From positions 124,001 through 188,000 of the forward strand of contig NZ_JAATWC010000003.1 in NCBI RefSeq assembly GCF_012979235.1: a DNA stretch of 64,000 nt. Direction: 5' to 3'. Positions 52,219 through 56,169 of this stretch are shown in pieces. Within the stretch, counting starts at the first letter, position 1, and the number at the start of each line of letters is the position of its first letter. The notes beneath the pieces were generated by a model. It did no database searches and was not told the origin of the DNA. It worked only from the letters and a program-made list of their open reading frames with translations. This DNA comes from Dissulfurirhabdus thermomarina (lineage in GTDB: Bacteria > Desulfobacterota > Dissulfuribacteria > Dissulfuribacterales > Dissulfurirhabdaceae). Made by a program: the position numbers and the translations under genes.

Positions 52219-54561
52219 CTAGAACCCGTAGCTCACGTAGCCCATGACGGACTGGATCCCGGAATCCTGGTCCCCGTAGACGTAGGGCTGATCGTCCCGG
52301 AAGTAGTCGAAGTAGTAGTTCACCCCCACGCCGAGGGCCTCGGTCACCTTGTAGCTCACCCCGACGGTGACGTTGATCTCGTCGAAGTCGAGGTCGGAAT
52401 AGGCGTCGCTACCGTTGATGTAGGCCGTGTCATAGAGGTGCGGCTGGTTGGGGTTCACCGAGGACGTATCGAGGTCCAGCTTGGCGTCCCCGGTGGGGTA
52501 GATGCTGTTGAAGAAGAGGTCGCTGATCTCGCCGGTGCCGGTGGTCCAGCTCAGGTTGGTCTTCAGCGAGAGCTTTGGGACGGGCTTCACTTGGAGGCCG
52601 GCGACCAGGGTGCCGGCTTTCGTCTCGTATTCCATGTCCGTGTGTTCCGAACCATACTGGTTCGTTGTGATGAGGTTCGCTCACCCGTCGTAGACGGCGA
52701 TACAGTACATGGAATCGTACTGATCATAGAAATACGTGTACCCCACGTTGAAGACCACCTTTTCGCTCGGGGCGTAGGTGAGGTCCACGCCCCCGGTGAA
52801 GAGGTTCTGCTTCCAGTCGTTGCCGTCCACGTCGTCGTTCTGGGCGTAGCGGTACTTGGCGTGGAGGGCGGCGGTGAGGTTGTTCACCGGCGTCCACCCG
52901 GCCCGCAGGTTCACCTCGTGGGCGCTGTTGGCCTGGTTGGACCGGAAGGCGGTGCGCGCCTCGTAGATGGTGGGCCGATAGGACCGGCTGTAGTCGTAGA
53001 GGTCCGGGTTCGGCCCGCCGTAGGCGCCGAAGGAGTTGTCGGGGGTGCAGGAGGCCCGCTTCAGCCCGTAGGCGTCGTCCACCAGCTCGAACCGGTAGCC
53101 GAGGCGAAGGCGCAGGGTCCGCGTGGCCCGCCAGTCACCCGACACCTTGAAGGTGTGCTCCGTGGTCTCCCCGGGGACCGCCTCGTGGTTGTCCCGCTCC
53201 TCGAGCTGGTACTCGTAGCCGCCCCGAACGGTGAAGCGGGGGAGCGCCCGCCAGACCACGTCGAAGCCCGCGGTGGTGATGTCGAGGTCGTTGCCGGACT
53301 CGCGGACGTGGTCCCAGTACCCGGCGCCGAGCCCGTAGCCCTGGCTGAGGGTGGTGCTCCCGCCCAGGGGGATGGTGCCGGGATTCGGACGATCGTTCAC
53401 GTCCACGAAGACGTCGCTGTTGTCCATGGTCTGGTACTTGCCGTGGACCGTGAGGGAGAGGGCCCTGGAGAGCCGGCTGTGCCACCGCGCCATGACGGCG
53501 GTGCTCTCCAGCTCGAGCTCCTTGTCGAACTCGCCGCGCAAGGCGTCGTAGGCCCCGTCCGCCTCGTTGTTGGTGCTGGTGGAGTAGACCACCGCGGCGG
53601 TCAGGGTGTTGTGGGGGTCGATGTCCCACCGGGCCTTGGCCGTGTGGACGTCCTTGGTGCTGTCGGGCGTCCGGGCGAAGGGGAGGGCCCCCTCGGCGTT
53701 GTCGAACTGCAAGCGGTTGGTGAAGAGCCCGAAGTGGGTCGGCGCCGCCAAGGCGTTGTAGGTAAGGGAGAGCTCGTCGCTCTTGTCCTCGAACTCCCGG
53801 TGCATGTAGGAGTACTCCAGGGCGAAGGTTCCCATCCGGAGGCTCACCTTCGGGGTGTACTCGTTGGTGAGCTCGTGGACCTCCTTGCTCACCCCCACCA
53901 CGTGGCAGGCGGAGCACTTGCTCATGGTCCGGGCCTGCTCCATCCCCTCTCGCTTCTCGTAGCGATGGTCGAAGCCCACGGTGAGCATGGGCAGGGCGGG
54001 GACGTGGATCACCGCGCTGTTTCGCATCTCGGACCGGGTGATGGCGTACTCGTCCGTGGGGTTGAAGTCGGTGTGGTACACCGCCGCCGAACCCACGGTG
54101 CTCGGTGCCACCGGCGCCGTGAAGGGCGTCCCGGCCACGGGCCCGGCCACCGTGTTGCTGAAGATGTGCGCCTCCAGGTTGTCCAGCTCGTCGTGGCCCA
54201 GCTGGTGGAGGAAGCGGTTGTAGGTGGTCTTCACCGTGAGGATGCGGGCCAGGGAGAGGGCCCCCCCGTACTCCTGGTCGTCGCCGTCCTGGTAATGGGC
54301 GTCGGCGTCGAGGTCCACGAGGCCCGTCCGGAGGCTCACGTCACCGGCGAGGTCCACGGTGAGGTTCTTCTCGAGGATGCTGTTGTACTCGGCCGCGCCC
54401 TTGGCGGCGGACTCGTCCTCGTCCACGTCGTCCAGGGTCCAGGCCCCGCCGACGCTCACCCGCCCCTCGAGGGCCTTGCCCTCCTCGGAACGGGCCGGCG
54501 ACGCCGACACGAGGGCCAGGGCCAGGGCGGCCAGCAGTCCGATCCCTGCAATGCGTTTCAT
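52219..54561 (-). CDS. MtrB/PioB-like outer-membrane barrel, interrupted by an in-frame TGA
   Basis: A predicted porin that holds a multiheme cytochrome in the outer membrane. The signal peptide ends SASPARSE; about 26 alternating strands follow. The frame is broken by TGA at 52683-52681 after residue 626, yet the same frame continues for 153 codons to a normal barrel ending (YVSYGF). Full length would be 780 codons. The upstream part already lacks the last six or so strands, so the truncated product should not fold as a barrel. A hairpin 17-33 bases after the TGA (52648-52664) is considered below. Residues 216-220 read CSACH, a c-type heme motif, unusual inside a barrel. It follows the decaheme gene by 16 bp with a GAGGAGGTGAG ribosome site. 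Annotated as one gene; pseudogene status is not excluded. Confidence 0.72.
52648..52664 (-). other. Hairpin just after the in-frame TGA, possible SECIS-like element
   Basis: CGAACC-AGTAT-GGTTCG, 6-bp stem and 5-base loop with G at loop position 2. The loop begins 22 bases after the TGA, within the range described for bacterial SECIS elements. The stem is short, and similar hairpins occur by chance, so this is only a candidate. Confidence 0.25.
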
Positions 54562-54577: not shown

Positions 54578-55570
54578 CTACCGGGTCAGGCCATGGCCGC
54601 CGCCGGGCACCGTCTGGGACGGCAGGTCGGAGCCATGCACCTGGGAATGGCACTGGGTGCACTTGGTCATGAAGGACTTCTGGAACCCGTGGTCCGTGGG
54701 CCCGATGGTGTTGGCCGGATCCCCGGGCGCAATCACCGTGGCCACGTCGTTGGAGGCCCGGGCCGCATGGAAATGGGCCTCGTGGCAGGTCAGGCACAGG
54801 AAGGGTTCCTGCTGGCGGAGGAGGTTGTTCGCCACGGTCCCGTGGGGGTCGTGGCAGATGAGGCAGTCTTCCACCACGGGGTCGTGCTCGAACACGAAGG
54901 GCCCCTGGTACCGGGTGTGGCAGTCGAGGCAGAGGTCGTTGACCCGCTCGTCGGTGTTCAGCATGCCGGGCACGGTATTGGCCGTCCCGTGGGGGTTGTG
55001 GCAGGAGGTGCAGACCATCTTCCCCTCTTTCAGGGGATGATGGGAGGCGAAGTAGCCCTGGGCGTTGACGTCCTGGTGGCAGCCCGCGCAGAGGTCGAGC
55101 TGCTTCTTGGCCAGCAGCCGCTTGTTCCCGTTGAGGTGCACCCGGTGGCAGGCGGTGCAGGCCACGCCGTTTTCGGCGTGGGCCGAGCCGGCCCAGTTCA
55201 TGTGGGGACCCACCTGGTGGCAGGTGGTACAGACGCCGGCCACCTCCTCGGCCTCCAGGCCTCCCTCGGTGAAGCGGAGGATCTTCTCCGTATCGCCCCC
55301 GCCCTCCACGTGGGCGGAGCCGGGGCCGTGGCACCCCTCGCACCCCGTCTTGTAGCCGCCAGGCACCTCGAAGGCGGCGATGCGCATGTGGACGTTGTTC
55401 CGGTCATGGGCGTAGCCCTCGTGGCACTCGAGGCAGGCCTCGCTCCCCACGTAGGCGGCGCCCGGCGCGACCGACGGGGCCTTGATGTAGTCGGCCCGCT
55501 TGCCGAGCATCTGGGCGCAGCCGATCAGGAGCACCAGACCGGCGGCCGGAACCAGCAATCTCTTGATCAT
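54578..55570 (-). CDS. Decaheme c-type cytochrome lipoprotein (DmsE/MtrA-like)
   Basis: A 330-residue exported cytochrome. The N-terminus MIKRLLVPAAGLVLLIGC has a lipobox with Cys 18, predicting a lipid-anchored protein. Ten CxxCH motifs are visible in order: CLECH, CEGCH, CTTCH, CTACH, CAGCH, CTSCH, CLDCH, CLICH, CLTCH, CTQCH. Number, spacing and size match the DmsE/MtrA group of decaheme cytochromes that insert into MtrB-type barrels. ATG at 55570 follows TTGGAGGGACATGGG. The barrel gene is 16 bp downstream, so both form an operon. Direction of electron flow and the partner are not known. Confidence 0.9.
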   Translation of the reverse strand: MIKRLLVPAAGLVLLIGCAQMLGKRADYIKAPSVAPGAAYVGSEACLECHEGYAHDRNNVHMRIAAFEVPGGYKTGCEGCHGPGSAHVEGGGDTEKILRFTEGGLEAEEVAGVCTTCHQVGPHMNWAGSAHAENGVACTACHRVHLNGNKRLLAKKQLDLCAGCHQDVNAQGYFASHHPLKEGKMVCTSCHNPHGTANTVPGMLNTDERVNDLCLDCHTRYQGPFVFEHDPVVEDCLICHDPHGTVANNLLRQQEPFLCLTCHEAHFHAARASNDVATVIAPGDPANTIGPTDHGFQKSFMTKCTQCHSQVHGSDLPSQTVPGGGHGLTR

Positions 55571-56169
55571 CCCATGTCCCTCCAACCTGTTGGATTCGAT
55601 TCCATCGACGGCACCCCCCGGCGGCGGCCGGGCGGGAGCCTCAAGGCTTCCATCACGGGCGATCCTTCTTCGGCGACTCCGGCGGTCTCACCTCCCTTCA
55701 CGTTCGGCCCCGACGGGAAGGGGCCTTCGCAGGGTGTCCCGCCGGCCCCGGCGGGAGGCGGCGGCTCCGGCGCGGCGCCCCTTTCGGGGGCCGTCGCGGG
55801 CATGGACGCGGGTCGAAGGTATTTCAGATCGGAAAAGTGAGAGCGGAGAAGATGGAGGGAAGATGCCGAAACGGCGGGGCCCGAAGGCCTCCAAGCACTG
55901 GAGCGCCCAGCCTGGGCAGGCGGGGCGATGTCAGACGCGGCGGCCGGACCGTCGCATCACGTCTCCCTCCCTGTCCGGGTGTGCCTCTCCCATGCCGCGG
56001 CGCCCGGAAGAGCCCAGCGGCGGCACACCTCTTGACGAATGTGGCAGAACGAGCCGCAGCTGTCAACCGGAACTTCCATGATTCACGCAAAAAACGGCGC
56101 CCGGTCCCAGGCATAAAAAAGGGGACCGGAAGACTCCGGCCCCCTGAGGCGTCCGTGGGGGAAAGCGGT
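55571..56169. other. Upstream region of the cytochrome operon, with serA terminator
   Basis: About 600 bp. The serA terminator is at 56113-56144. A minus-strand TTGACA (56066-56061) with a weak CACATT 17 bases on may be the cytochrome promoter, leaving a leader near 470 bases with hairpins such as CCCGCCGGCCCCGGCGGG (near 55740). No gene is supported. Confidence 0.4.
56113..56144 (-). terminator. Terminator after serA
   Basis: Minus strand GGGGCCGGAG-TCTT-CCGGTCCCC followed by TTTTTTAT; one G-T pair in the stem. It lies 25 bp after the serA stop. Confidence 0.88.

Follow-up and report, generated by a model that had tools for sequence, protein, structure and literature searches.

Selenoproteins of the MtrB/PioB type have already been catalogued. 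They are listed as "MtrB/PioB family outer membrane beta-barrel protein" (PMC9312934, 2022) and as "GSU2204 family CXXCH-containing protein" (PMC13188914, 2026), with no redox motif given in either case, and the NCBIfam profile NF041027 bears the name "GSU2204 family CXXCH-containing (seleno)protein". In Geobacter sulfurreducens, GSU2203 and GSU2204 were up 2.68-fold and 2.36-fold on hematite, and 1.65-fold and 1.53-fold on magnetite, respectively (PMC4070692). Our literature search found no paper studying the function of the GSU2204 family. The first-pass annotation had regarded selenoproteins among outer-membrane barrels as something new; given these three entries they are not, and the barrel gene described here is a further member of a known, almost unstudied selenoprotein family.

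The window (the whole stretch of DNA that was analysed, 64,000 nucleotides) contains on its minus strand a frame of 626 codons (54561-52681; 52681..54561 (-), 626 aa in the list of open reading frames) that stops at the TGA 52683-52681. Beyond this TGA, 153 further in-frame codons lead to a terminal Phe and to the TAG 52221-52219 without any frameshift, exactly as first described. When the TGA is read as U, the product has 780 residues with U at position 627, and gene calling without Sec support cuts this protein at residue 626. The profile NF041027 is matched with 573.7 bits (cut-off 350) over positions 2-580 of 580, and the last residue matched is 626, which immediately precedes the Sec. The Pfam family MtrB_PioB (PF11854) is detected with 72.1 bits (gathering threshold 23). 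The AlphaFold model (mean pLDDT 78, pTM 0.74) is a 26-strand barrel in which the part encoded after the TGA forms the last five strands. Among the solved folds, the model is closest to the Mtr-complex protein MtrB (6r2q_B; E 2.3e-26, TM 0.64/0.76), which is also matched by the family profile at the sequence level (E 1.8e-6). The coordinates of the features are given in Table 1.

Table 1. Features of the barrel locus, in window coordinates.
Feature	Position	Strand	Observation
Full-length selenoprotein gene, MtrB/PioB-type 26-strand outer-membrane barrel, GSU2204 family	52219..54561	-	780 codons + TAG, Sec at residue 627
In-frame TGA, codon 627, interpreted as selenocysteine	52681..52683	-	TGA 38/45, Cys 6/45, Gly 1/45 distinct homologues
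bSECIS apical hairpin, CGAACC/GGTTCG stem (52664-52659 with 52653-52648), AGTAT loop (52658-52654)	52648..52664	-	Stem conserved across 37 distinct rows, with compensatory changes; no such stem seen in Cys and Gly forms
CSACH (Cys216-His220), the barrel's one c-haem binding motif	53902..53916	-	Cys/Cys/His invariant in the family
His119, invariant, at the end of strand 5 predicted to be extracellular; candidate distal ligand of the haem	54205..54207	-	
Cys620, seven residues before Sec	52702..52704	-	In most, not all, Sec forms
GSU2203-family decaheme c-type cytochrome (DmsE/MtrA-like), forming a two-gene unit with the barrel gene	54578..55585	-	Directly upstream; NF041028 472.5 bits, cut-off 325

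Homologues were collected in two overlapping sets, namely the matches of NF041027 (found in 34 of the 46 genomes of the class) and 39 loci obtained by searching named genomes with sequence patterns; together they provide 45 distinct homologues reaching the TGA site. The residue at this site was not selected for, because the search patterns omitted the TGA codon and the NF041027 profile stops just before it. The tblastn alignments reveal that the homology continues across the TGA. The codon is TGA in 38 homologues, Cys in six (five TGC and one TGT) and Gly in one (GGA), whereas Trp was found in none of the 45. This comparison had been suggested to separate selenocysteine from a TGG change, and Cys occupies the site in six of the seven homologues without TGA. 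The residue preceding Sec is always Gly, and the following one is Ala or Gly in the TGA forms. Many Deltaproteobacteria bins have a TGA form, Desulfuromonadales among them, and so does a Nitrospirae bin; some of these forms are only about 26-28% identical. The Cys forms are represented by five Candidatus Aminicenantes loci and by one paralogue in the genome G002. Downstream of the TGA, the dN/dS values range from 0.03 to 0.35 (eight pairs) and are similar in size to the upstream values where the upstream dS is unsaturated; the codons after the TGA are under purifying selection.

Three explanations had been left in competition by the first-pass annotation: recoding, a fresh nonsense mutation and a base-call error. 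The last two are excluded, as 38 distinct homologues have kept the TGA, and selenocysteine recoding is strongly supported. A pseudogene in which TGG had recently become TGA would show a single in-frame TGA with no frameshift, as is the case here, but it would account neither for TGA at the same codon in such distant homologues, nor for the lack of Trp in any of them, nor for the purifying selection on the downstream codons. Likewise, an error of base calling or assembly could be suspected in a draft assembly of 34 contigs, but the identical TGA is present in independently assembled genomes.

The hairpin CGAACC-AGTAT-GGTTCG begins at the 17th base past the TGA, and both its sequence and its location agree with the initial description. 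Folded as a single sequence it does not stand out from shuffled versions (z = -0.55; 50 of the 200 do as well), so that it becomes significant only through the comparison of homologues. The 38 TGA sequences were aligned without reference to structure. In this alignment, the six-pair stem and the five-base loop are kept, and the second base of the loop is always G. Over the 37 distinct rows, 91.0% of the hairpin cells are paired (75.3% in shuffles), 22 cells are changed on both sides in a compensatory manner (4.1 after shuffling), and covariation reaches 0.400, compared with 0.108 for the shuffles and at most 0.168 for the slid controls. RNAalifold, run without a given structure, recovers the helix of the hairpin with five of the six pairs and one pair across the loop. 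On inspection, the Cys and Gly forms showed no equivalent stem at this place in their DNA. The covariation across homologues refutes the earlier opinion that such a short stem was likely due to chance. The distance of the hairpin from the TGA and the G of the loop match the bacterial SECIS model.

The GC3 of the barrel gene is 0.96 upstream, 0.77 at codons 605-660 and 0.94 in the downstream part. Local codon use had been said to be kept after the TGA; this is correct over most of the downstream part, but not in the dip. This dip (window positions 52582-52749, around the TGA and the hairpin, in a gene where GC3 is otherwise about 95%) fits an extra RNA constraint, and is a possible signature for locating such recoding sites.

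An internal ATG at 52635 starts an ORF of 138 aa in the list of open reading frames, and would suit a regulated truncation or a pair of proteins, translation stopping at the TGA and the C-terminal part being made separately or never. We judge this very unlikely, since the barrel of 26 strands is continuous and the TGA falls at the tip that joins its strands 21 and 22, the Cys- and Gly-coding homologues form one uninterrupted chain, and the covarying hairpin has the position and the loop G of a bSECIS. Partial termination at Sec codons when selenium is scarce is expected for selenoprotein genes.

The genome of the barrel gene contains selA (603 bits), selB (378 bits) and a tRNA-Sec(UCA) (selC, 75 bits), the three genes that had been proposed as a check, and selD (383 bits) as well. 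The tRNA was called by both Rfam RF01852 and ARAGORN. A tRNA with a UCA anticodon could in principle bear another residue, such as Trp or Cys, and act as a suppressor at this UGA; the assignment of the UCA tRNA that was found as tRNA-Sec by the two programs, the presence of selA, selB and selD and the covariation of the SECIS-like hairpin make this extremely improbable. SelB was found in 43 of the class's 46 genomes. Among the genomes examined for the distant loci, all eight that carry a TGA form have SelB, and so does the Gly-form one, but none of the five Aminicenantes genomes that carry a Cys form does. There was no SelB match in three TGA-form genomes, G007, G008 and G044 (completeness 90%, 66% and 83%, respectively), and incompleteness may explain this absence.

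The characters by which a bacterial selenoprotein is recognised in sequence data were observed, namely a conserved TGA with Cys alternatives, a bSECIS hairpin and selA, selB, selC and selD. From these sequence comparisons, we consider it almost certain that the TGA at codon 627 is a selenocysteine codon in a member of the GSU2204 family. The gene would then give one selenoprotein of 780 residues: SelB, on the hairpin located 17-33 nt past UGA-627, would bring Sec-tRNA(UCA), and the ribosome would insert Sec.

Several observations were made on individual genes. Two copies of SelD are present in the genome of the barrel gene, and one of them, located outside the window (L051, G000:C10:60502-61425), has its own in-frame TGA; it is probably a Sec-containing SelD, a form known from other bacteria. 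The Gly homologue (L020:1087-3300 / L077:5980-8193) has an unrecognisable hairpin and retains the CXXCH and His119. Since SelB is present in the genome of this Gly homologue, Sec is dispensable in at least one lineage. The paralogue of G002 (L039:930-3356; G002:C2:679000-683500) is divergent (about 23% identical) and has Cys in place of Sec, and the same genome also has a Sec form. Finally, one gene copy (L040:1047-5057; G037:C8:68000-74500) is broken by about 1.9 kb between the positions that correspond to codons 498 and 527. The long frame of this copy was considered as a domain inserted in frame into an extracellular loop; this was rejected, as the stops and masked bases of this segment indicate an interrupted copy.

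In nearly all homologous loci examined, the barrel gene directly follows a gene whose product has ten CXXCH motifs, or nine in one copy, and the assignment of this upstream gene to NF041028 (GSU2203 family) was confirmed in five loci. As for an MtrC-like extracellular multihaem cytochrome, none is encoded nearby: over about 4.5 kb, the loci examined have no multihaem gene other than the upstream one. The barrel and the upstream decaheme cytochrome together probably constitute an MtrAB-like transmembrane electron conduit.

The multi-alignment of 35 sequences (down to 23% identity) has few invariant positions, among which are His119, Cys216, Cys219, His220, Ser422, Arg536, Asn575 and Gly626. Position 627 is Sec or Cys in 34 of the 35 sequences, and the CXXCH contains the only invariant Cys pair of the family. 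Cys620 was examined as a selenenylsulfide partner of the Sec (C-x6-U). It is replaced by Tyr or Phe in four Sec forms and by Ala or Ser in all Cys forms, and an obligatory selenenylsulfide between Cys620 and Sec627 is therefore unsupported. The topology was deduced by counting the strands of the model from either end, both termini being taken as periplasmic. According to strand parity in the AlphaFold model, the residues 119, 216-220, 422, 536 and 627 are on the predicted extracellular side, the pLDDT being below 50 at residues 216-218 and 625-632, in the loops that carry the CXXCH and the Sec.

On the basis of this model, we tentatively propose, with less than even confidence, that the barrel is a surface redox enzyme and not a passive sheath, where a c-haem bound by the CXXCH (perhaps with His119) and Sec627 would form one extracellular catalytic site electrically linked to the periplasmic decaheme cytochrome. 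This site would lie at the outer opening of the barrel, with the CXXCH at residues 216-220, and would exchange electrons with the decaheme cytochrome; Sec627 would take part in a redox reaction whose other partner, an acceptor or a donor, is extracellular. The point of importance is the location of the Sec, which like the CXXCH is predicted to be extracellular, rather than the recoding itself. If this placement is true, selenium chemistry would take place at the cell surface inside an electron conduit.

No difference was found between this protein and the GSU2204 family defined by NF041027, of which it is another member. With MtrB/PioB (PF11854; 6r2q) it shares the barrel fold, with 26 strands in the model, and the adjacent DmsE/MtrA-like decaheme gene, but the identity with MtrB (6r2q) is about 15% in the structural alignment. 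Contrary to MtrB/PioB, the barrel has its own CXXCH and a Sec, and no MtrC-like gene is adjacent. ExtKL of Geobacter (NF040886) is likewise a predicted selenoprotein, whose gene lies in an electron-transfer cluster that also encodes a porin and multihaem cytochromes (PMC5877670). However, ExtKL is itself a five-haem cytochrome, whereas the Sec described here sits in the barrel.
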